Virus record (IMG/VR): IMGVR_UViG_3300006638_000031
Location: 1 to 20,243 of that record
Reading direction: 5' to 3' (one strand)
Source of the DNA: a virus
Length of the DNA: 20,243 nt
Shown here in pieces: positions 8,610 through 18,030 of this stretch (position 1 is the stretch's first letter; every line of letters begins with the position of its first letter). The notes below the pieces were generated by a model. It saw only the letters and a program-made list of their open reading frames with translations, had not been told where the DNA came from and ran no database searches. A program made the position numbers and the translations under genes.

Positions 8610-10085
8610 ATGAGTTTGGATATTAACAACAACTATCGTGGTACACTCTATGGTCGTGACCGTTTGGGATACACGACTCCTGATGCGGATGCATCTGAAC
8701 CGCTGCGTCCTTTCCTTCCAGTTCCTTATCCTGCACCTTGGCTTCCGGGTCGTAGACTTGATGAGGGGCATCCTGTGGGAGCTCAAGTAGTTATCAGCTC
8801 GCACCAGATTGTTGGTCTAGATAAGTCAGGGGCTCTTATTCCCGCCGGCTTTATGTCTGGTACTACAGCTAGCTCTATTACCACTGCATCTACTAACACT
8901 CCTATCGGTGCTATTACTGCCTCTTCGCAAACCGGTTCGGTGGTTACCTTTACAGTTACCAGCACTGCTGGTCTGCAAGCTGGAGATACTATCTCTATTT
9001 CTGGTTTGGGAACCAACGGTACCGCTTGGAATGGAGCTTATACTATATTTGCTGTAACCTCCCCTACTCAATTCCAAGTTGTCCAAACTGCTACAACTGC
9101 AGGCTCTGACGGTTCTGGTACAGTCCGCGATTATGAAGGCTTATATTGTGCTATCCAATATGGTCAGAATGACGTCGGGTTTGCACGCAATGCTGTAACA
9201 GGTAATCCTGTGGCCGCGGCAGGTGAATATGTAATCCTCGCTGCCCCAGCTGATGCTGTACTCGGAGACATCGTTGTATTCCCAAATGGTAATACAATTG
9301 CTGTTACAGATGCCGACCTTACATTTGCAACTGGGTTTAATGACGCTGCTCATGCTTCTCGCGTAGTTGGTGTGACAGGTTGTAACCTTATCCCCAACGG
9401 AGTAGCCCGCCCAATCGGATATGCTATTCGTAACGTGTTTCAATTCCTCGGTGGTGTGAACTTGATTAGCACAACCGGTGGAATCTTCTATACCCTTGAA
9501 TCCATGGTTCCTATCCAGTTCCGTATCCACAACTACATGCATGAAATGGGAACAGCTATTCAGACTCATTTCTGTCTCCGCCTGCCTTGGATCGGAGCAA
9601 CTCCTACAGCCCTGCAGTCTTTTGCAGCTGCTGATGGTATCTCTGGATATGTCCAGACAGACTTCGGTCGCAGCTTTGTACACGCAACAGGTGGAATAGC
9701 AGGCAACCCATATGCATTAAATGGATTGTCAGTGGTTCCTTCCCGCTTGGGCTTTGGTTCTGATGCTGGAAATTATTCCTTCTATAACGCAGCCGTCAAT
9801 GGTTTCGATGAAATCTGCGGACGTGTTATTGGAGTGGAGTCTTTGTATCCTATTAGAGACTTTGCAAATAGGGTGAGAACACAGTTTGAACGAGCAACGG
9901 AAGCTGTTGGTCCGTTTACAACCAGAACGCCTTCTATCGGGCAGATGGGTGGTTCGGCAACCCGTGGTATGGATTACATGGTCAACTTGACAAACGATGG
10001 AATCTTCCGTTTGGCTTCTGACCAGAATAAAACAATCCGTCCTGAATACTCTACTTATGTTTATATTCACTTCCTCGCAAGATAA
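8610..10085 (+). CDS. Putative capsid-associated / head decoration protein with Ig-like insert
   Basis: Not assignable to a named family by eye. It starts at ATG 8610 with AAGGAG at 8596-8601 and encodes 491 aa. Residues 1-80 are a head-protein-like N-terminus (a Pro-rich stretch, then LDEGHPVGAQVVISSHQIVGLDKSGALIPAG, which reads as beta strands). Residues about 101-172 are an Ig-like module (GLQAGDTISISGL, NGAYTI, TSPTQFQV) of a type that recurs in later genes. The remainder is beta-rich and ends in a conserved-looking segment FANRVRTQFERATEAVGPF...YIHFLAR. Placement between the protease and the major capsid gene suggests a head-surface or vertex protein; this is inference. The gene that follows directly is not the capsid gene but a small inserted pair. 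Confidence 0.7.
   Translation: MSLDINNNYRGTLYGRDRLGYTTPDADASEPLRPFLPVPYPAPWLPGRRLDEGHPVGAQVVISSHQIVGLDKSGALIPAGFMSGTTASSITTASTNTPIGAITASSQTGSVVTFTVTSTAGLQAGDTISISGLGTNGTAWNGAYTIFAVTSPTQFQVVQTATTAGSDGSGTVRDYEGLYCAIQYGQNDVGFARNAVTGNPVAAAGEYVILAAPADAVLGDIVVFPNGNTIAVTDADLTFATGFNDAAHASRVVGVTGCNLIPNGVARPIGYAIRNVFQFLGGVNLISTTGGIFYTLESMVPIQFRIHNYMHEMGTAIQTHFCLRLPWIGATPTALQSFAAADGISGYVQTDFGRSFVHATGGIAGNPYALNGLSVVPSRLGFGSDAGNYSFYNAAVNGFDEICGRVIGVESLYPIRDFANRVRTQFERATEAVGPFTTRTPSIGQMGGSATRGMDYMVNLTNDGIFRLASDQNKTIRPEYSTYVYIHFLAR
8910..9125 (+). repeat. Ig-like module (copy in the 491-aa protein)
   Basis: Residues 101-172 show the pattern VTFTVTS-x2-GLQAGD-x-ISISGL...NGAYTIFAVTS-x2-QF-x-V...GSGTV, which resembles modules at 12409-12816 and in the 316-aa protein at 17344-17574. 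Confidence 0.5.
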
Positions 10086-10104
10086 TATTAGAGGGAATAT
10101 ATTT

Positions 10105-10167
10105 ATGGCGAGGACCAATGCGTCTCCTAAAGTTTATAACCAAAGGGCAAGCAGTTATTCAGGGTGA
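10105..10167 (+). CDS. Possible 20-codon leader ORF
   Basis: ATG 10105 follows GAGG at 10091-10094 with 10 bases between, and encodes a basic 20-residue peptide (MARTNASPKVYN...) that ends at TGA 10165-10167. It overlaps the start of the Com-like gene in another frame, and that gene's own ribosome-binding site lies within it. It may be chance or a translational coupling device. Confidence 0.2.
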   Translation: MARTNASPKVYNQRASSYSG

Positions 10168-10336
10168 CTCTTTACGCTGTGCAGCACCCAGAGCAAATGA
10201 TAGTCGTAGATCTTGCAACAAGCTTTTAGTAAAGATTAATGAACAGGGTCAAATAGCTGGCAACTTCCGGTGCGAAAGATGCCATCAAGAGATAGAAGTT
10301 AAACTCGCTCCTGCGAGAGAAGATTTAGCAAAGTAA
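10118..10336 (+). CDS. Com-like zinc ribbon protein (72 aa)
   Basis: Small probable nucleic-acid-binding protein with four cysteines, C21, C33, C52 and C55. The segment SCNKLLVK followed by GQIAGNFRCERCHQEIEVK resembles the zinc ribbon of the Mu Com family, in which Com activates translation of the mom DNA-modification gene. In Com the first two cysteines are separated by two residues; here the gap is 11 (RCAAPRANDSRRSC), so the first knuckle is expanded or altered. The start at 10118 has GCGAGGA just upstream. TAA 10334-10336 overlaps the ATG of the HNH gene, so the two are coupled and may have arrived together. No mom-like gene is visible in the window. A generic zinc ribbon regulator is the alternative. 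Confidence 0.6.
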   Translation: MRLLKFITKGQAVIQGDSLRCAAPRANDSRRSCNKLLVKINEQGQIAGNFRCERCHQEIEVKLAPAREDLAK

Positions 10337-10686
10337 TGAATAGTCCTTCTCACAAACGGCTGAACGACCGTTGGATACGAAAACCCACGTCCCGGTATAA
10401 ACAACTGATTAGAGTAGCCGGGTATCGTAAATTAGATGTTACGATTACGTTAGATGAATTTACCCAGTTGATAGAGCAATCTTGTTTTTATTGTAAGGGT
10501 TCATTACCCGCAACTGGTTCTGGATTAGACAGGTTAGATAATAAAATGGGATATGTTCATGGTAATATTGTCCCGTGTTGTAAGCGTTGTAACTTTGTAA
10601 AAGGTTGTTTAGAAAATGCTGGGTTTCGATATCCTAGAACTGAAGAGCTCCTTAGAGAGTTACTAAAGACAAATTTGGAGAATTGA
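10336..10686 (+). CDS. HNH endonuclease (free-standing homing type)
   Basis: Site-specific DNA nuclease of the kind often found as a selfish insert among phage late genes. The 116-aa protein has CFYC at residues 50-53 and the core GLDRLDNKMGYVHGNIVPCC followed by KRCNFVKG. These give the paired zinc cysteines and the N-x2-PCC-x2-CN signature of the HNH_3-like phage group, with Arg in place of the first His (LDR), as is common there. The start overlaps the preceding stop (TAATG). It is the only gene here ending in TGA; nearly all others end in TAA, in keeping with separate origin. It interrupts the block between the 491-aa protein and the major capsid protein. No intron is apparent, since both flanking genes look complete. 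Confidence 0.85.
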   Translation: MNSPSHKRLNDRWIRKPTSRYKQLIRVAGYRKLDVTITLDEFTQLIEQSCFYCKGSLPATGSGLDRLDNKMGYVHGNIVPCCKRCNFVKGCLENAGFRYPRTEELLRELLKTNLEN

Positions 10687-10691
10687 ATAAC

Positions 10692-12059
10692 ATGGCTACT
10701 AAAAAGACCACCGTTGACCAACTTGATTGGAATGATAAGCAAGTTCAGACTGAACTAGTCCGTATGGAAACTATTTTCCGTACTAGTGGAATTGACCCAG
10801 TCGAAAACAAAAGGATTACGATGTCAGACGCTTTGGATATTCCAAACGCTGCCTTCCTTATCCCTAGAGTTCTAACAACCTTCGTGCAAGAAGGTATTGA
10901 ACCAATGTTGATTGGAACTAGCTTGCTACAGCGCATTGATTACGTGCCTGGTATGCAGACAGTATTCCCAGCTATTGACGTCCTCACAGCTCGTGAGGTT
11001 GGCGATGGTATGGCACTTCCAATTTTCAATATCAACGTTGGTGGAGCACAGACCTTCGGTGTGACAGTCAAGCGGCATGGATTGTCTCTCCGAATCTCGG
11101 AACGCTTCGTTGAACAGTCTACTTATCCATGGATCCAGTACTGGATGAGGTTGGCTGGTAATGCTCTGGCCCGCCATAAAGAAGAGTTCATTTTTAACTT
11201 CATTACAGGTCTAGGCACGGTCATCTTTGATAATAGCCCGGCTGCTCGTACGGCTGGTGCTTCAGTACAACCTGTTAAAGGTATCACAACTGGCCGCAAC
11301 CTAAAGGGACAGTTCAATGGTTCCATGACCGCGGATGATGTGTATGATATGTATGCACAAGTCCTGATGCAAGGTTTCATTCCCGACATGATGCTCATCC
11401 ATCCTATGTCGTGGCTGCAATGGGTCAAGGATCCTGTCCTCCGTGAATTTGCTATCCAAGCTGGCGGTGGTTCTTTCTTCGCCCAGTTTACAGGTGACCC
11501 GTCTACAAAGGCCAATCCATTCTTCAACTTTGGAGGAATGGCTGGAGGACAAGGACAAACTGGTCAGTATAGTCAAGGTAACCTGTCTGGTGGACAAACA
11601 TCTACATCAGCCGGCCTGCCACAGAATCAACGTACTGCTCCTACACTTCCTAACTATCTAGGTTTGCCTTTCCGAATTGTAGTCAGTCCGTTTATGTCTT
11701 TTGATCCTATCAATCGTACCGTAGACACTCTCTTGTTCAACAGCCAGAACCTTGGTGCTCTTATCGTTGACCAAGATCCTCATGTTAACTCTTGGGATGA
11801 CCCAATGTATGATCTACGTAACATTGGTATTGAAGAGTCTTATGGTTTCGGTATCTTGAATGAAGGTCAGGCAATCGGTGTGGCAAAGAATATCAAGCTT
11901 CGTCCGAACGAGATCGTTCTTCCAGCCCGTTCTATTATGGACATCGGTGTCCAACAGGCAGCTGGGAACTTCCAGACTTACGAGAACGTGCAAGTCTTCG
12001 GTGCAGCCCCAATCGATCCTACAGCTTCCAGCTTGTCGGATCTGCCTTCCAGCGACTAA
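10692..12059 (+). CDS. Major capsid protein (HK97-like fold)
   Basis: Main shell protein, 455 aa from ATG 10692. An in-frame TTG at 10683 is possible but sits only two bases from GGAG (10677-10680); the ATG is 11 bases away. The N-terminus is a helical delta-like region (about 8-50). Then comes the usual order for this fold: ISERFVEQSTYPWIQYWMRLAGNALARHKEEFIFNFI (spine-helix-like), MTADDVYDMYAQVLMQGFIPDMMLIHPMSWLQWVKDP (P-domain strand and helix), and LPFRIVVSPFM...DTLLFNSQNLGALIVDQDP near the end. A Gly/Gln/Ser/Asn-rich segment at about 278-315 interrupts the core and probably forms a surface loop. The protease upstream and the terminator-like spacer downstream fit a highly expressed capsid gene. 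Confidence 0.85.
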   Translation: MATKKTTVDQLDWNDKQVQTELVRMETIFRTSGIDPVENKRITMSDALDIPNAAFLIPRVLTTFVQEGIEPMLIGTSLLQRIDYVPGMQTVFPAIDVLTAREVGDGMALPIFNINVGGAQTFGVTVKRHGLSLRISERFVEQSTYPWIQYWMRLAGNALARHKEEFIFNFITGLGTVIFDNSPAARTAGASVQPVKGITTGRNLKGQFNGSMTADDVYDMYAQVLMQGFIPDMMLIHPMSWLQWVKDPVLREFAIQAGGGSFFAQFTGDPSTKANPFFNFGGMAGGQGQTGQYSQGNLSGGQTSTSAGLPQNQRTAPTLPNYLGLPFRIVVSPFMSFDPINRTVDTLLFNSQNLGALIVDQDPHVNSWDDPMYDLRNIGIEESYGFGILNEGQAIGVAKNIKLRPNEIVLPARSIMDIGVQQAAGNFQTYENVQVFGAAPIDPTASSLSDLPSSD

Positions 12060-12089
12060 ATATAAGTTGGCGGCATAGAAAGAAACTTG

Positions 12090-12151
12090 AGGTGGCCTAG
12101 TGATTTTGGTCCGGTGGACAAACTGGGCTTAGACATTAGACCACCTTTTTT
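12090..12151 (+). terminator. Branched hairpin with U-tract after the capsid gene
   Basis: AGGTGG (12090-12095) pairs with CCACCT (12141-12146) and CTAGTG (12097-12102) with CATTAG (12134-12139), giving about 12 pairs around one C/A mismatch. The interior holds a second small hairpin, GTCC-GGT-GGAC (12109-12119). Six T residues follow at 12146-12151. It looks like a rho-independent terminator or attenuator for the capsid transcript. The long interior is unusual, so a structured RNA is an alternative. Confidence 0.65.
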
Positions 12152-12164
12152 GTTGAAATCAACA
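12151..12164. promoter_or_regulatory. Palindrome TGTTGA-AA-TCAACA before the 564-aa gene
   Basis: Perfect 6-base inverted repeat with a 2-base centre, directly after the terminator U-tract and 7 bases before the AGAGGA ribosome-binding site (12171-12176). It could be a DNA operator or, as RNA, a 5-pair hairpin with an AAAT loop. No promoter boxes are clear here. Confidence 0.35.
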
Positions 12165-12183
12165 GTTTAAAGAGGAATCCAAA

Positions 12184-13878
12184 ATGGCAACTCCATCTTA
12201 CACAGTTCCATCTACACAAGCTATCAGTCTACAATTGCCCCAGCCTGCAGTGAATGGAGCTGTGGTGTGGTCTGAGACCCCATCTATTGGGCACATCATT
12301 CCTACTAATGATGGTCAGTCTGCTTTGTTTAGTCCAGGGCCTGCTGTGTTTCCATTGACAGCGGCTACGTTAAATAGTGCTACTGCCGCATTAGTGTTGA
12401 CAGCAGTGGCAGCTTCTAGTGGTGGTACAGCAGTTTACACAGGTACAATTACTGGTGGTGCGGCTAATGCTCTGGTTGGTCAAGTATTTGTTGTTGCCGG
12501 GTTTGTGGGTGCCTATAATAATGGGACATTCCTCTGTACGGCTTCCTTGGCTACAACTTTAACATTGTCTAATGTCAGTGCACAGGCAGAAACACATGCT
12601 GGTACAGCTCAAGCAGCTGTTACCCATACAACTTATACAGGTACATTTGGAACTGCAGCTATCGGTAACGGACTAGCTGGAGTTTCAATTGTTGTAGCAG
12701 GTATGGCTGATGCAGCCAACAATGGTACATTTACCATATTGTCTTCTACAGGTACTCAAGTTGGTGTGACTAATGCTTCTGGAGTAACTAGAACTACCCA
12801 GACTGGAACAGCTACGGCTGCGGCTGTTACAAGTACAACAGTAACTGCAGTTATCACACCAAGCGTTGGTGTTTGGAAGCCTGGACATTTATATCGTGTT
12901 GGGGATCAGATCGTTGATGTCAATGGACATACCCAACAGGTCACTGCTGGATCAAGGAATATACAATCAGTTTTTACTCCTTATGCCGGCAAGATTCCAG
13001 GTAGTATTTCTATGCTATTAACTGGTGGTTCTGCTACAAGTACAGCACCGTCTGGTATTCCTTTGTCTGGTGGTTCTGTTGCCATTACTGGTATCTCGGC
13101 TACAGTTCCTTCTACCTTTGTAGTTGGTCAGACAGTTGTTATATCAGGTATGACAACTACAGCTGCTCCTTTGAATGGGAGTTGGGAGTTGTTAGCAGTT
13201 GGGGCAAATAGCCTTACCCTCTATTATAATGGTTCTCCTCTTTCTGCTGTTTCTTTGACCGCGGCCAGCACGGTTTCGGTATCTGGTGATGCTACGCAAT
13301 TTGGTACAGAATATGGTGGAAGTATAGTCAGCGGAACTGTACAGTATGGTACAGTGTTAAACCAAGGTCAGGGTATTAATGGTGATTGGCCAGCTGGTGC
13401 ATCGTCCGCTCTTACTGGTAATACCAAGAAGCCTTATCCAACAACAGGAGCTACCGTCATTTGGGTAGGTTGTGGTTTCTCGGCTGGTCCTCATTCTTAT
13501 GGTGCTTTAGGAGTACCAAGTTTTGATGGACCACAGCAAGACTTTTCTACACCTACTCCAGGTACTGGTTATGGTAATGATACACGAGCCCAATATGCTA
13601 CTTACTCTGAAATTGGTGCTCATGGACTTATTCCTTATTATGATGACGCGGGTAACCTTATAACAAGTGGTTGGCAAGTTGCAAAGGGTACACAGACTTT
13701 TAGTGAATCTTTGATCCTCACGGCGCCAACATTTAGTACAGGTGGTGGTACTACCGTAGATGGTGAGTTAACTTGGACAGATGAAGGCTTGGTTTCTACA
13801 GTAACTTATAATGCCAATCTCACGGTGTCGGCAACAGCTGCTCCTCCTGTTGGTTCTTACGTAACACTTGGTGCATAA
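12184..13878 (+). CDS. Modular virion surface protein with repeated Ig-like domains
   Basis: Large beta-rich protein (564 aa), very rich in Thr, Ala, Gly, Ser and Val. ATG 12184 follows AGAGGA at 12171-12176. Residues about 76-142 and 148-211 are two tandem Ig-like modules (GQVFVVAGF...NNGTF...TTLTLSN...HAGTA and GVSIVVAGM...NNGTFTI...GTA). A third, more diverged copy spans about 297-370 (GQTVVISGM...LNGSWEL...NSLTL). A W/P-type motif (W231KPGHLYRVGDQIVDVNGHTQQVT) precedes the third copy. Another at 515-535 (PTFSTGGGTTVDGELTWTDEG) resembles the motif in the 363-aa protein downstream. Such modules are common in phage decoration and appendage proteins that contact host surface or environment. 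Exact location in the virion is not readable. It is first after the capsid gene and its terminator. Confidence 0.75.
   Translation: MATPSYTVPSTQAISLQLPQPAVNGAVVWSETPSIGHIIPTNDGQSALFSPGPAVFPLTAATLNSATAALVLTAVAASSGGTAVYTGTITGGAANALVGQVFVVAGFVGAYNNGTFLCTASLATTLTLSNVSAQAETHAGTAQAAVTHTTYTGTFGTAAIGNGLAGVSIVVAGMADAANNGTFTILSSTGTQVGVTNASGVTRTTQTGTATAAAVTSTTVTAVITPSVGVWKPGHLYRVGDQIVDVNGHTQQVTAGSRNIQSVFTPYAGKIPGSISMLLTGGSATSTAPSGIPLSGGSVAITGISATVPSTFVVGQTVVISGMTTTAAPLNGSWELLAVGANSLTLYYNGSPLSAVSLTAASTVSVSGDATQFGTEYGGSIVSGTVQYGTVLNQGQGINGDWPAGASSALTGNTKKPYPTTGATVIWVGCGFSAGPHSYGALGVPSFDGPQQDFSTPTPGTGYGNDTRAQYATYSEIGAHGLIPYYDDAGNLITSGWQVAKGTQTFSESLILTAPTFSTGGGTTVDGELTWTDEGLVSTVTYNANLTVSATAAPPVGSYVTLGA
12409..12816 (+). 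repeat. Tandem Ig-like modules, copies 1 and 2
   Basis: Two adjacent modules of about 65 residues (12409-12609 and 12625-12816) share the framework TYTG/VYTGT...G-x-[SV]-[IF]-VVAG-[FM]...A-[YA]-NNGTF...TGTA or HAGTA. A third diverged copy lies at about 13072-13293. The DNA copies are no longer closely similar. Confidence 0.6.
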
Positions 13879-13894
13879 TAACAGTATGTGACCC

Positions 13895-13900
13895 TGGAGG
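13895..13900 (+). promoter_or_regulatory. Ribosome-binding site that sets the 157-aa gene start
   Basis: TGGAGG lies 5 bases before ATG 13906, which makes the upstream in-frame GTG at 13888 unlikely as the start. Confidence 0.65.
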
Positions 13901-13905
13901 TCCTT

Positions 13906-14379
13906 ATGTCTAATATAATTCAGTTCCCTACAAAGACTGATTATACTGGGAAGATAGTTTCAGTCTCACCTGAAACTCCCTTGTCTCGTTTTCAGTGCCG
14001 CGGATTCGTTGTCTTCAAATCCAAGCCTCAAGTAGTCGGTCCTGATGCCGACATGGATGCTATTCAAGTTGCTATCTTGGATGGTCGTCTCCTCGAACTT
14101 GCTCCTGGTGTTGCTACCAAAACAAAGAATGCTAGTCTAAACCCAGCTGGTGAGTTAGGGGATACAGATAAAAAGATATTCACCCTGCAAACCAACGAGG
14201 GTCTTATTGTGCTTACTACCGAGAGTGTAGAACAATCTATGGCGATTGAGAAAGAACTACAAGAAACTGGACAGTTAGACCTCTCCCATTTCCCCTACCT
14301 ACAAAAGAGTAAAGCTGCCGTACCTCATCTTAGTGCTATTACTATCACTGATTTAGAGCCCGAGAAACCTAATGAGTAA
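13906..14379 (+). CDS. Hypothetical protein, 157 aa
   Basis: Unrecognised. The start at 13906 (MSNIIQFPTKTDYTG) follows TGGAGG. It is a soluble, acidic-leaning protein. Residues about 20-50 are beta-prone (CRGFVVFKSKPQVV), and residues about 85-115 are strand-like (KKIFTLQTNEGLIVLTTES) followed by a helix (MAIEKELQETG). One Cys is visible near residue 31. No catalytic motif or membrane segment is seen. The end overlaps the following gene by 8 bases (ATGAGTAA), so translation is coupled. A small virion or assembly protein is plausible from its place between two structural genes. Confidence 0.75.
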   Translation: MSNIIQFPTKTDYTGKIVSVSPETPLSRFQCRGFVVFKSKPQVVGPDADMDAIQVAILDGRLLELAPGVATKTKNASLNPAGELGDTDKKIFTLQTNEGLIVLTTESVEQSMAIEKELQETGQLDLSHFPYLQKSKAAVPHLSAITITDLEPEKPNE

Positions 14380-15463
14380 TCCCACTATCCTATCGGTAGT
14401 CCCAATTGCAAATGCGACTGATGTAGTGTTGGGTTCATCTATTATTGTAGTCTTCTCGGAACCTATAGATACCGATTCAATCAATAATGCTACATTTGTT
14501 CTTACCGGTCCAGACTATAGTTCTGTTATAAGTCCCGGGCAATTCACAGAAGTTAATCCAATACCCAGTCAAGGCAGAGGTTACATTCTTGGTACGTTTG
14601 GATTCTCTACCAAGACTTATTTAGTATGGGCTCCTATTACTGCTTATGCTGTGGGGGCTCAAGTACTTGATAGTAATGGTAGTGTACAGACTGTTAGTGA
14701 GGCTGGTATTTCTTCTCCTTATCAGCCGGCCTGGCTAACAACAGTTGGAGACACTACTATAGATAATGATATTCCAGTATGGCAAGCTTTAATGCTTAAT
14801 CCATTTAGTCAGTTCATATTGGATTCTAATTCTAATCTACAAAAGGTTACTACAACTGGCGGAGGCACAACAGGAAGTGCAGTTCCATTATGGAATAAGA
14901 CTTTAAGTGGTACTACATTTGATGGTAGTCTTGTATGGACTAACTACGGGCCTCTCAATCCTATTGTTTGGGTAAATGGCGGCATAGCAAATAGTGGTGG
15001 TACTGTAGTAACCTTTACTCCATCTAGACCTTTAGCTCCTGGTATCGTTTATACAATACTAATTGTAGGATCTGATTCAACGTTAGCTTCTACTTTTGTC
15101 CATGACCTTTCTGGTAATAATCTGTTACAATCCTATCAATGGTCTTTTACTACAGGTACCATGGATGTAGCTACTCCTCCTACCCAGAATCCTATACCAC
15201 CTCCCAAATCTTTTATTAACCCAGGTCAGATACAAGTTATTCCTAGACCCGCTCCGGGAGCTGATGATCCAAGTATCTCTTCTATCTCTGTTATTGAGCT
15301 TATTTTTCCAGCTCCAATCAATCCGGATAGCTTTGATCCAACGCAGTTGCTTATAGGTATTGAGCCCATCATGGGGGATCCTGATGTGATGGTTCCTCCT
15401 GGTGCCAGTGCTTCTTATATTATTCAGGGTAATAAACTTATAGTTACGGTAACAGGAGTATAA
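14372..15463 (+). CDS. Big_5-type Ig-like virion protein with inserted W/P modules
   Basis: Probable surface or appendage protein, 363 aa. The first 47 residues (ILSVVPIANATDVVLGSSIIVVFSEPID...) match the opening half of a bacterial Ig-like Big_5 (SbsA-type) domain. Its closing half appears only at about 208-262 (TFTPSRPLAPGIVYTILIVG, DLSGNNL, WSFTTG). Between them lie two modules of another kind (about 84-139 and 145-193), with VLDSNGSVQTVSEAG...PAWLTTVGDTTIDNDIPVW and ILDSNSNLQKVTTTG...PLWNKTLSGTTFDGSLVW. A Pro-rich linker (268-281) follows, then the start of a second Big_5-like domain (300-363) that stops before its usual final strands. The start overlaps the previous gene by 8 bases; the stop TAA shares ATAATGTG with the endolysin start. 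Adhesive or host-recognition function is inference. Confidence 0.75.
   Translation: MSNPTILSVVPIANATDVVLGSSIIVVFSEPIDTDSINNATFVLTGPDYSSVISPGQFTEVNPIPSQGRGYILGTFGFSTKTYLVWAPITAYAVGAQVLDSNGSVQTVSEAGISSPYQPAWLTTVGDTTIDNDIPVWQALMLNPFSQFILDSNSNLQKVTTTGGGTTGSAVPLWNKTLSGTTFDGSLVWTNYGPLNPIVWVNGGIANSGGTVVTFTPSRPLAPGIVYTILIVGSDSTLASTFVHDLSGNNLLQSYQWSFTTGTMDVATPPTQNPIPPPKSFINPGQIQVIPRPAPGADDPSISSISVIELIFPAPINPDSFDPTQLLIGIEPIMGDPDVMVPPGASASYIIQGNKLIVTVTGV
14621..14950 (+). repeat. Two W/P-type modules inserted in the Big_5 domain
   Basis: Two related protein modules follow the pattern [IV]LDSN-[GS]-x-[VL]-Q-x-V-[ST]...G...P-x-W...G-[DT]-TT-[IF]-D-[NG]...VW. The same pattern recurs at the end of the 564-aa protein (residues 515-535). 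Confidence 0.5.
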
Positions 15464-15467
15464 TGTG
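15454..15467 (+). promoter_or_regulatory. Ribosome-binding site serving two overlapping start codons
   Basis: AGGAG (15454-15458) precedes ATG 15463 by 4 bases and GTG 15465 by 6 bases. GTG opens the endolysin; ATG opens a different frame of 108 codons. The preceding gene's TAA (15461-15463) overlaps the ATG. Confidence 0.55.
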
Positions 15468-15980
15468 GCCGACTATAATCTGGCTATCACATTTGTACTC
15501 ACTCTTGAAGACTCTTCTGGCCGCGGCAAAGTCACCGTCGACTCAGATGGGACGACTCGTTATGGTTTGCTCGACCGTTGGCATCCTGACCTTACTACGC
15601 AAGGGTTTTACACGATGCCGGCAGATGAAGCCCTCGTTATTGCTAAAACGTGTTATCGGACACAATACTGGAATCATATTAGTGGAGATGGCATCACCTC
15701 GAATATCGTCGCTGCGCAGATCTTTTCAATCGCAGTCAACGATGGTATTACATGGGCTACAAAGATGTCACAAGGCGTTTTGGGGCTAGTCCAAGATGGT
15801 GTATTAGGAGATCAAACTCTTACTGCTATTAACAGTATGGATCCAACAAATTTCATAACTGCTTTCAATATGGCTGCGAAAGCAAGATATGCTGCTATTG
15901 TTCAAGCCCATCCAAATAAAGTTGGAGACCTACAAGGGTGGTATAATAGAGTAGATTTAATTAGCACCTTCAAAGGATAA
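15465..15980 (+). CDS. Endolysin: GH108-type muramidase with PG-binding domain
   Basis: Cell-wall hydrolase that cuts the glycan strands of peptidoglycan at lysis. GTG at 15465 starts the frame (171 aa). Residues 1-80 match the glycosyl hydrolase 108 pattern: FVLTLEDS with the probable catalytic Glu15, then TRYGLLDRWHPDL, MPADEALVIAKTCYRTQYW and GDGI. Residues about 84-165 match the usual C-terminal peptidoglycan-binding partner of this family: VAAQIFSIAVNDG, DGVLGDQTLTAIN, ARYAAIV, LQGWYNRV. Length is typical (about 160-200 aa). There is no classical signal peptide, so export would depend on the holin gene that follows two bases after the stop. Assignment is strong. Confidence 0.9.
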   Translation: MADYNLAITFVLTLEDSSGRGKVTVDSDGTTRYGLLDRWHPDLTTQGFYTMPADEALVIAKTCYRTQYWNHISGDGITSNIVAAQIFSIAVNDGITWATKMSQGVLGLVQDGVLGDQTLTAINSMDPTNFITAFNMAAKARYAAIVQAHPNKVGDLQGWYNRVDLISTFKG

Positions 15981-15982
15981 GT

Positions 15983-16231
15983 ATGAAATGGTGTATAACA
16001 CCTCTTTATAGTTTCTTCGGTGGGACAACAGAGTTCTATGCCTTTGTTTTCACCGGGGTATCTATATTCTTTGCTTTTAAACATATGCTGACCCTTGAAT
16101 TCGTAGGGGCTATTGGTGCTATCCAAGCTATTATTACAGCTAATGATATTCATAATGATGTGGCAGTAACTAAAGTGATTGTTAATACTGGACAACCAGC
16201 AGATCCAGAGTTTCCAGGAGATCCTCATTAG
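15983..16231 (+). CDS. Holin-like small membrane protein
   Basis: Likely holin: a small inner-membrane protein that permits endolysin access to the wall at lysis. ATG 15983 follows AAGGA (15973-15977), which overlaps the endolysin stop. The 82-aa protein starts MKWCITPLYSFFGGTTEFYAF. It has one clear hydrophobic span (about 18-35) and a second weaker one (about 38-53, FVGAIGAIQAIITA), with a polar, Pro/Asp-rich C-terminus. The FFGGTTEFYA opening followed by two spans resembles a phage holin-like family, judged from memory of such sequences. Adjacency to endolysin and a spanin-like gene supports the call. It is the only gene here ending in TAG, and that stop lies inside a predicted RNA stem. 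Confidence 0.65.
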   Translation: MKWCITPLYSFFGGTTEFYAFVFTGVSIFFAFKHMLTLEFVGAIGAIQAIITANDIHNDVAVTKVIVNTGQPADPEFPGDPH

Positions 16232-16283
16232 GCGAAGTAAGTCTCGCTTCTTAGAGACGAAGCAAGCCTAACTTAGAAGGAGA
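16228..16283 (+). promoter_or_regulatory. Structured intergenic RNA with two mutually exclusive hairpins
   Basis: TTAGGC (16228-16233) pairs with GCCTAA (16266-16271) as an outer stem that includes the holin stop codon. Inside, GTCTC (16241-16245) can pair with GAGAC (16254-16258), or GCTTC (16246-16250) with GAAGC (16259-16263), but spacing is too tight for both. CTTCT (16247-16251) can also pair with AGAAG (16275-16279), which overlaps the AAGGAG ribosome-binding site of the spanin-like gene. This may tune translation of that gene. Confidence 0.45.
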
Positions 16284-16287
16284 TTAT

Positions 16288-17070
16288 ATGGTAACACCAC
16301 CAACAGGAATAGTAGCAACTGTAGAGAAAGACTTTGCACTTGTCTTCACCAAATCTCATATTATAATGGCAGTTATTATTCTTGCTTGTTTGCTGGGGCT
16401 GGCGTGGTTCTGGAAAGATCATGCTGCAGCTAGTGCTGATCTCGCTGCCGCCGTGGCTGATCAAAAGGCAGTAGCAGCAGATACATTGAATAAGCAACTA
16501 CAACAGCAAAACACAGTCACCCAGCAACAGACACAAGCACAGATTGCCGCTCTTACTATACAAAATCAATCGCTTCAAGCACAAATAGCTGCACTTGTTA
16601 ATGCTATATCTACAAGAAACACAGTGCTAGTTACACAGCAGAAAACCGATGCTACATTGCCTCCTACAGACTTATCCACTCGCTGGCAAAGTCTTGTACA
16701 TATGCCTACTGGTGTTGTACCTTCTACTAGTGGTTTTTCTGTAAGTCCACCTGCAGCTGTAGCAACAGTTCAAGAGCTTGAAAGTATAGATACCATAACT
16801 GCTGATAACACTGATTTAAAGCAGCAAGTAGTTGATTTAGATGGAGTTATAGGACACGATGGGACAATAATGTCGGCATCAACTGATGCTCTTATCAGTG
16901 AGAAGAAAGCCCACGCATCCGACCAAGCTACTTGTACAACAGACCTAGCAGCCAAAGATGCTACCATTAAACAAGTAAAAGCCGACGCAGCAAAAGGTAA
17001 AGCAAAATGGTTCATCATAGGTGGTATTATTGGTGAAATCTTTCACGTAGCTATTTCACATACATTATAA
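16288..17070 (+). CDS. Spanin-like membrane coiled-coil protein
   Basis: Probable inner-membrane spanin or related lysis protein that helps disrupt the outer membrane. ATG 16288 follows AAGGAG (16277-16282). The 260-aa protein has an N-terminal membrane anchor (about 24-42, HIIMAVIILACLLGLAWFW). A long Gln/Ala-rich coiled coil follows (about 45-118). Next is a conserved-looking middle segment with DLSTRWQSLV and a Pro/Ser-rich stretch (about 121-165), then a second helical region with one Cys (C216). It ends with a hydrophobic tail KWFIIGGIIGEIFHVAI (about 240-257). Rz-type i-spanins are usually about 100-180 aa with a single N-terminal anchor, so this one is long and has a second hydrophobic end. 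No o-spanin lipoprotein was found nested or adjacent. Confidence 0.6.
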   Translation: MVTPPTGIVATVEKDFALVFTKSHIIMAVIILACLLGLAWFWKDHAAASADLAAAVADQKAVAADTLNKQLQQQNTVTQQQTQAQIAALTIQNQSLQAQIAALVNAISTRNTVLVTQQKTDATLPPTDLSTRWQSLVHMPTGVVPSTSGFSVSPPAAVATVQELESIDTITADNTDLKQQVVDLDGVIGHDGTIMSASTDALISEKKAHASDQATCTTDLAAKDATIKQVKADAAKGKAKWFIIGGIIGEIFHVAISHTL

Positions 17071-17079
17071 GAGGTACCT

Positions 17080-18030
17080 ATGTATTACGCTGGAGATACT
17101 TATCATTTCATTCTAAATATTCCCACTATAGCAGGGACTCCTACTGTTACTAGTGCTCCTTTGATTACAGTCTTGGATATAACTCTTCCAGGCTCTCCTA
17201 TTGTGACTGGCGCCACTATGACTCTTATGACAGGCACCAGCTTTCTGTATTATTATTCATTTGCTATTCCAAACGTTTCACCAAAAGACTATGTAGCAAT
17301 ATACAGTTATGCAGTTAGTAACTCCCAGACCTTGGGCACAGCTACAGTAGCAACTTGGGCAACTAATGTCGCTACATTCACATTCCCTTTGCCTTTGCCA
17401 GCTGATGCTGTTCCAGGTTCATTACTTACTACTACAGGTTTTACATCTACAGGTACCGGTAGTTTCAATGTTACGAATGCTCCTATTCTAACTGTCAATC
17501 CAGCAACAGGTGTTATTACAGTTGCTGATATTGGTACTACTTTGGTTGAGACTGGTCTAGGATCTGGTACTGCTATCAAGAACACAGTAATATCTAATCA
17601 ACTATTATCTGATTCAGATAAGGTTCATGTTGGAGATTCCAATATTCTAGGACAGGTAGCTTTGAATTCTACTGTTGCTCAAGATGCTACAGTAGCTAAA
17701 GATGCTACAGTTTTCAAGTCGGCTTCCTATATAGCTCCACAGAATGATCCTATGGTTCAGACTATCAATACAGCTACCACGACTATTCTTTCTAATAGCA
17801 ATGCTGAAGTAACTCTTTTGGGTACTCTTTCAGCCGGTACACTTTCGGGTCTTCTACAGGATGTGTATGATAACCTCTTTGGATCATGGAATATTGACCA
17901 GACTGCAAACCCACCAATGCTATATATAAAGAGGATTAATGGAACGCCTATTGCTAGCTTCCAGCTGATTAACAATGCATCTAATACCCAAAGAAATACT
18001 ATAACGTACCCGCCAGAAAGCAACGTTTAA
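17080..18030 (+). CDS. Virion-type beta-rich protein with Ig-like module
   Basis: Not assignable to a named family. ATG 17080 follows GAGG at 17071-17074. The 316-aa protein begins with a Thr/Pro/Ile-rich beta domain (about 5-82). It continues with an Ig-like module (about 89-165: ATWATNVATFTFPLPLPADA, PGSLLTTTGF, GTGSFNVTN, GVITVADIGTT) similar in framework to those in the 491- and 564-aa proteins. A short tandem repeat of VAxDAT (about 199-211) leads to a helical stretch. The C-terminal segment includes VYDNLFGSWNIDQTANPPMLYIKRINGTPIASFQL (about 262-296). Such layouts are typical of tail-fibre, baseplate-associated or decoration proteins of environmental phages. Role is inferred from context. 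Confidence 0.7.
   Translation: MYYAGDTYHFILNIPTIAGTPTVTSAPLITVLDITLPGSPIVTGATMTLMTGTSFLYYYSFAIPNVSPKDYVAIYSYAVSNSQTLGTATVATWATNVATFTFPLPLPADAVPGSLLTTTGFTSTGTGSFNVTNAPILTVNPATGVITVADIGTTLVETGLGSGTAIKNTVISNQLLSDSDKVHVGDSNILGQVALNSTVAQDATVAKDATVFKSASYIAPQNDPMVQTINTATTTILSNSNAEVTLLGTLSAGTLSGLLQDVYDNLFGSWNIDQTANPPMLYIKRINGTPIASFQLINNASNTQRNTITYPPESNV
17344..17574 (+). repeat. Ig-like module (copy in the 316-aa protein)
   Basis: Residues 89-165 follow the same framework as the modules at 8910-9125 and 12409-12816: a VATFTF strand, PGSLLTTTGF, GTGSFNVTN, then GVITV and a closing Thr-rich strand. Confidence 0.4.
17665..17712 (+). repeat. Short 18-base in-frame tandem repeat
   Basis: GATGCTACAGT occurs at 17683 and again at 17701, in an 18-base period with a third, partial unit before it. 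It encodes DATVAK-type units. This pattern is common in phage tail proteins as a short helix or trimer linker. Confidence 0.6.

Follow-up and report, generated by a model that had tools for sequence, protein, structure and literature searches.

Gene content of the locus

The DNA analysed here, referred to as the window, is a stretch of 20,243 nucleotides (nt) from a virus (IMG/VR record IMGVR_UViG_3300006638_000031, positions 1 to 20,243), a linear viral record of 20.2 kb which encodes a phage structural region. Its genes specify the terminase large subunit, the portal, a likely protease of head maturation and p491, then two small proteins of 72 and 116 amino acids (aa), the likely major capsid protein with 458 aa and, beyond it, p564, p363, a lysozyme-like protein, p316 and further proteins. 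One module is present in p491, p564 and p316, least firmly in p316, and in each of the three it is a clean insert. The initial annotation had proposed a shared module for these proteins; profile links and the modelled fold of p316 confirm it, with three copies in p564, one in p491 and one, the weakest, in p316. The length found is ~70-97 residues, where 65-75 had been claimed. The likely capsid protein has no module, and within the window modules were found only in the following genes:

8610..10085, plus strand: p491, 491 aa; after the likely protease gene and ahead of that for the likely capsid; one module
8862..9125, plus strand: p491 module, residues 85-172; swapped or missing in relatives
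12184..13878, plus strand: p564, 564 aa; first gene past the likely capsid gene; a mosaic with three modules
12382..12624, plus strand: p564 module copy 1, residues 67-147
12607..12831, plus strand: p564 module copy 2, residues 142-216; in tandem with copy 1
13000..13290, plus strand: p564 module copy 3, residues 273-369; of the three, the most like the p491 module
17080..18030, plus strand: p316, 316 aa; one module
17317..17595, plus strand: p316 module region, residues 80-172; FCCH-like barrel in the model (see below)

Relatives of p491 occur in 18 viral loci (designated L, the longest record among them being 215 kb), and the order of the genes is kept among these loci as far as the contigs reach. 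The closest named relatives of the capsid protein are those of phages ME3, MTATph1 and KLEB27-3, with ~30% identity. Scans against PHROG gave weak and mixed matches, the top one being phrog_5838, 'virion structural protein', on p491 (E value 2.2e-6).

Sequence relationships among the module copies

A p564-family profile was built from 13 copies, the three p564 domains of the window being among its seeds, and recovered window copies 1, 2 and 3 with E values of 1.6e-29, 6.5e-19 and 2.4e-19, respectively, with zero reversed decoys among the matches listed; in round 0 of the iterative search the best decoy had an E value of 6.5. The initial annotation had envisaged a search of the other proteins with a profile of the p564 copies. 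By itself, six iterated rounds included, the p564-family profile reaches neither p491 nor p316, but an iterative search started from a sister-phage module, with further sister-phage sequences as intermediates, arrives at three p491 orthologs, with E values in the last round of 6e-8 (L002), 0.0032 (L003) and 0.016 (L004). The inclusion limit was 0.01, so that some p491 orthologs were already inside the profile, and the best reversed decoy stood at 2.0. The p491 of the window appeared in the same search at 0.025 in round 2 and was lost in later rounds. In the reverse direction, the p491 profile matches window p564 copy 3 (E value 0.0011, Z set to 1000) and one sister-phage protein (E value 3.7e-6), and profile-profile comparison of p564 with p491 by hhalign gives an E value of 1.7e-4 and a probability of 50%. 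The kinship of the p491 and p564 modules is carried by sequence, through the sister-phage intermediates.

An alignment of 39 rows was assembled from 38 of 45 stretches plus the window p491 module, seven stretches being dropped as duplicate, short or marginal. Glycine and asparagine positions are kept across these copies, which were chosen by similarity, and few residues are near-invariant. The module is also found in further genes of the relatives, namely in frames of 878 and 1298 aa in the 215-kb record and of 240 and 368 aa in record G002.

Predicted fold of the module

The only module copy modelled with fair confidence is that of p316. The mean predicted local distance difference test (pLDDT) score per ten residues is 74-84 over residues 81-120 and 131-150 and 55-66 over residues 121-130 and 151-170, while no ten-residue block outside the module exceeds 68. 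When residues 81-168 were compared with PDB structures, the best match was a ubiquitin-activating enzyme, E1 (Z 8.8, 80 residues, 2.5 A, 12% identity). Among the best 50 matches, rows 1-20 are all ubiquitin-type E1 enzymes matched in one region (Z 8.8 to 7.7), a region shared with row 26, which bears the title first catalytic cysteine half-domain (FCCH). The E1 rows are followed by Upf1, a phage head-to-tail protein (9jlf_E, Z 7.7), ribosomal proteins, riboflavin synthase and the phi92 endosialidase (Z 6.8).

Sequence profiles lead in the same direction. The E1_FCCH profile has a single match in the window, on the p491 module (8937-9101, E value 0.0014), and a single place in record G002, also a module. 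The best PDB match of the p491 profile is the phi92 endosialidase (E value 0.0077), at residues 278-329 of gp143, and the p316 model matches the stretch 255-338 of this protein, which encloses 278-329 if the PDB numbering follows gp143. For the p564 profile the best PDB match is the I-domain of the CUS-3 coat protein (E value 0.0016; 0.016 with a wider profile). When the 39 module copies were compared with Pfam, E1_FCCH was found on three (best E value 0.033) and a zinc-finger family on two (0.003). We favour a fold resembling the FCCH barrel over an Ig (immunoglobulin) fold; the model supports this for one copy, that of p316, and the p491 and p564 copies would adopt the same barrel. The module is not filed in PF16190, because the curated cut-off of that family is missed.

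Several observations weigh against this assignment, or against the wider view of one exchanged module in three proteins. The E1_FCCH match on the p491 module scores 13.5 bits against a curated cut-off of 29.5, and the family has no match in six of eight records and has matches in four of 14 control genomes. The E1 rows of the p316 list represent few distinct proteins, and, according to the note of the search tool, a Z score under ~8 can mean merely a common arrangement. Further down the PDB list of the p491 profile stand antibody light chains, at E values of 0.17 and weaker. In the structure prediction of p564 (10-row alignment) the modules have pLDDT values mostly of 30-48. HMMER profiles show no link between p316 and the p491 or p564 modules, and hhalign with the 39-row profile, in which p491 rows were included and p316 rows excluded, gives p316 an E value of 0.0081 and a probability of 5%, in the same register, a match which is marginal by sequence. 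Nor is the p316 module hypervariable (61% identity versus 75% and 68% in its flanks, four sequences). Big-family matches fall on some of the copies, Big_5 on one of the 39 (E value 6.3e-4) and Big_3_5 on two (best 0.039).

The p316 results raise the alternative that its segment is an unrelated beta domain of mere resemblance and that the true family consists of p491 and p564. With small profiles, hhalign gives p316 E values of 0.053 with p564 and 0.6 with p491, and in no hhalign comparison does its probability exceed 5%. The p316 module profile, moreover, has no convincing match in the PDB (trypsins at 0.16), and four p316 modules match no PHROG. On the other hand, none of 200 column shuffles equals the score of p316 against the 39-row profile, and when 36 windows of the p316 and p491 alignments were tested, the 11 best all overlapped a module. 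Fold and sequence comparisons converge on FCCH and on one and the same domain of phi92, and the p316 module is likewise a clean insert. We regard an unrelated p316 domain as unlikely, and the kinship of p316, carried by a marginal same-register profile match plus the fold, as the weakest of the three.

In the initial annotation the module was described as Ig-like. An alternative along these lines is that the modules are true Ig-like (Big-type) domains which spread through decoration proteins and serve as adhesins, as proposed for T4 Hoc. The Big-family matches speak for it, as do the neighbouring protein p363, which carries Big_5 with an E value of 7.4e-15, and the N-terminal domain of p564, which resembles the Ig-like structures 7quz (Z 6.7) and 2l04 (Z 6.0). 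However, the p316 model has E1 FCCH at the top of its PDB matches, and the best 50 listed contain no Ig entry, an absence which does not by itself exclude an Ig fold. The sequence matches likewise point to E1_FCCH, the phi92 endosialidase and the CUS-3 coat I-domain, the last a six-stranded barrel (PMC11243222). No Pfam Ig or Big family exceeds its curated cut-off on the p491 or p564 of the window, and on p316 Ig_NUP210 (0.041) is below cut-off. True Ig-like domains are, in our judgement, improbable here, and the FCCH-like barrel is retained in what follows; some caution is warranted against calling every NNG-type beta module in phages Ig-like. The p491-family profile found nothing convincing in the PDB, and Foldseek against viral models gave two matches at an E value of 0.001 or better, with low whole-chain template modelling (TM) scores.

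Loss and replacement of the module

The p491 relatives in L015 and L017 have no module. Across nine orthologs, the mean amino acid identity is 32% in the module, as compared with 94% ahead of it, 81% directly after it and 91% toward the C-terminus; these means omit the module-less L015 and L017, and L001 is absent from that alignment. Replacement is shown by two sibling genotypes, X (L004, L005, L006, L016) and Y (L007, L008, L009, L013, L018). Between L004 and L018 there is one mismatch over the first 272 nt of p491 and zero over the 300 nt upstream; identity falls to 49% in the module and is 93% past it. The alignment of L005 with L018 spans 7.9 kb and has a single break, which is located at the module. 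Contigs within X agree at 99.98-100% where compared, and those within Y at 99.96-100%. The p491 module is covered by contigs of several metagenome records, three of them for X and five for Y, which speaks against an assembly error, the more so if the samples are independent. The same pattern is seen between L011 and L012 (97% before, 50% in and 91% after the module). In contrast, the window has its p491 module in common with the sibling L001, at 85% in DNA, so that no swap has occurred between these two. Swapped alleles of p491 differ in length, and the reading frame is kept in every swap seen.

Over ~nt 600-1050 of p491, L004 and L018 have identities of 0.60-1.0 per 30 nt, versus mostly 0.93-1.0 further downstream. 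The lowered identity past the X-Y module would fit an imported tract that extends further than the module.

Searches of the phage collection with p491, with the p491 module and with the N-terminal 81 residues gave no match (E value limits of 1e-5, 1 and 1, respectively), and no relative was confirmed in genome contigs. ME3_21, the upstream neighbour of the ME3 capsid gene, resembles p491 at ~residues 41-83 (E values 7e-5 and 3.4e-5, single comparisons) and matches just the two ME3 records; since this 300-aa protein is annotated as hypothetical, it contributes no virion evidence.

In the p564 family, modules are found in four places. One follows the N-terminal domain (in the window and L002), a second lies close to window residue 273 (L004, L010, L018 and the window), a third comes after a stretch GI(E/D)SPVP (L011 and L012), and the fourth after a YSE-like one (L003, L004, L011, L012 and L018). 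The p564 relative in L014 has zero modules, and the p564 of L053 differs at one module from X as well as from Y. Copies 1 and 2 of the window seem to be inserted directly after the N-terminal domain. The first 53 residues of p564 (12184-12342) are well modelled; taken together with later strands, they resemble Ig-like domains as well as VirB9-type domains of type IV secretion. This part of p564 is probably Ig-like. Relatives of p316 in L010, L014 and L016 are also without the module.

A systematic count of breaks covered 20 sequences (190 pairs), with blocks of >=80% identity and >=200 nt and gaps of 90-1200 nt. Twenty-nine internal breaks were found between well-aligned blocks and 25 of them lie on a module, the remaining four being insertions or deletions of relatives of the 116-aa gene. 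When the breaks are pooled per pair of genotypes, eight of ten are on a module (six in p491, two in p564) and two are on the small gene. In the pairs with a module break, modules make up 4.5-33% of the compared span; as the pairs share lineages, we claim no probability for the count. The loss of the p316 module in X was left out of it because the flanks align at only 70% and 83%. Among distant pairs, fast divergence is indistinguishable from replacement, and the firm cases are X-Y and L011-L012.

The relatives of all three proteins, then, differ in presence or absence of the module; p491 has undergone block replacement, and p564 has a module break between close relatives. These breaks on modules, and the presence and absence in relatives, bear out the proposal of the initial annotation that the module had been spread, in the sense that it is mobile. 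The DNA-level traces of exchange for which it had suggested a search exist between related phages; within the window, which has three short repeat families only, no repeats joining the modules of different genes were found.

Proposed mechanism of exchange

The module behaves as a cassette which is added, removed or replaced en bloc, and it probably diversifies by exchange. Near-identical flanks around an unrelated cassette suggest that the route is homologous recombination between related phages. In the mechanism we propose, an FCCH-like beta-barrel of ~80 residues would be carried as an inserted cassette in at least p491, p564 and p316. It would enter and leave at fixed sites inside otherwise conserved genes, and the fixed sites would permit addition, removal and replacement without breaking the host protein. 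The conserved DNA on both sides would supply the homology, and the unrelated cassette between would be swapped as a block among related phages.

A programmed system, in which the module is rewritten by a retroelement or from silent copies that the phage genome keeps as donors, could also confine the variation to one cassette of a conserved gene, as is observed. However, a reverse transcriptase (RVT_1) was found in none of three records, a second copy of the Y module DNA is absent both from the 215-kb record that carries it and from four others searched (the records may in both cases be incomplete), and the lengths of the alleles differ. Such a system appears to us very improbable. The joint proposal, that an FCCH-like barrel of ~80 residues is an inserted cassette in at least three proteins, is exchanged by recombination and is displayed, we consider moderately probable.

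Possible role on the particle

The place near the likely capsid gene, the variability of p491 and the position of Tunturi_3 gp7 (see below) suggest a displayed domain: p491, p564 and p316 would be in the particle, with the module exposed on the virion. Binding by the module, the role put forward in the initial annotation, is plausible. The gain from its exchange may lie in altered contacts of the particle, with host or environmental glycans, or in altered recognition.

It is also possible that the module is a passive, loosely constrained spacer, exchanged neutrally, and that its variation reflects turnover and exchange and not selection for new binding. Relatives live without the module, and its sequence is of low complexity, rich in A, S, T and G, with little near-invariance across copies. 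The conserved glycine and asparagine positions of the 39 similarity-selected sequences, together with the frame kept in each swap seen, argue against this account, which we doubt without thinking it remote.

Returning to a displayed barrel, we tentatively put forward the less than probable extension that it forms a head-surface 'serotype' system, in which co-infecting relatives trade the barrel cassettes of several head proteins via conserved flanks. If so, particles with nearly one backbone would show different surfaces. The natural swaps could tie one variable domain to changed binding or recognition.

Neighbouring genes and other features

One further small gene lies near the capsid gene:

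10336-10686: 116-aa gene, between p72 and the capsid gene

This gene is missing from the sibling L001, and its relatives are gained and lost at other places. By eye it resembles an HNH endonuclease, an assignment to which Pfam gives no confirmation.

The Big_5 Ig-like domain of p363 lies at 14378-14527, in two stretches, so that genuine Ig-like material adjoins the barrel-type modules. p564 (12874-12951, 13636-13797) and p363 (14591-14971) have another type of module in common, with the pattern Y..GD.I.D.NGH.Q.VT ... TT.DG...W. The p363 of the window matches the L018 relative of p564 (E value 7.4e-10), and comparable stretches are visible in proteins of sister phages. A sister-phage protein of 1117 aa (L077, 7226-10579, minus strand) consists mostly of short repeats of the type TSSTGTVTESGSA.

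Comparison with known systems

The E1 FCCH domain (PF16190) is the top fold match of the p316 module, and within the window its profile finds only the p491 module. The score, however, is far under the cut-off, the best row has 12% identity, and no ubiquitin-type context is seen here; by its model, the p316 module alone is predicted to have an FCCH-type barrel. In the titles and abstracts of the literature on FCCH with phage and on hypervariable Ig-like decoration proteins, FCCH-type modules in virion proteins were not found, which is no proof of absence. With the targets of diversity-generating retroelements the comparison fails at the reverse transcriptase, which is missing from the three records searched, incomplete as these may be.

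The barrel of the phi92 endosialidase (4hiz, gp143) is matched in one stretch by both the p491 profile and the p316 model, but it is part of a tailspike enzyme, whereas the module here is in proteins encoded near the capsid gene. The I-domain of P22-like coat proteins (CUS-3; 6mnt, 8skg), the top PDB match of the p564 profile, is also an inserted barrel, with six strands (PMC11243222); it lies inside the coat protein itself, while the modules here are outside the likely capsid protein.

A further comparison is with gp7 of Tunturi_3 (PP885686), a podovirus (PMC11924767). The protein has two tandem modules, with ~62% identity to an L003 module over 53 residues, and its gene directly follows that of the major head protein; it differs in being annotated as a tail fibre protein. 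The host on which Tunturi_3 grows is Tunturiibacter psychrotolerans X5P2.

Domain shuffling in phages is already known, with recent domain-level shuffling between phage proteins reported in PMC10684548 (its main text does not mention FCCH), and the exchange found here is another case of that kind. Recent exchange of domains is best documented in receptor-binding proteins, tail fibres among them. In the present phages it affects a highly conserved gene next to that for the likely capsid, as well as the first gene after the latter, and the swaps occur between phages which are very similar over kilobases elsewhere.

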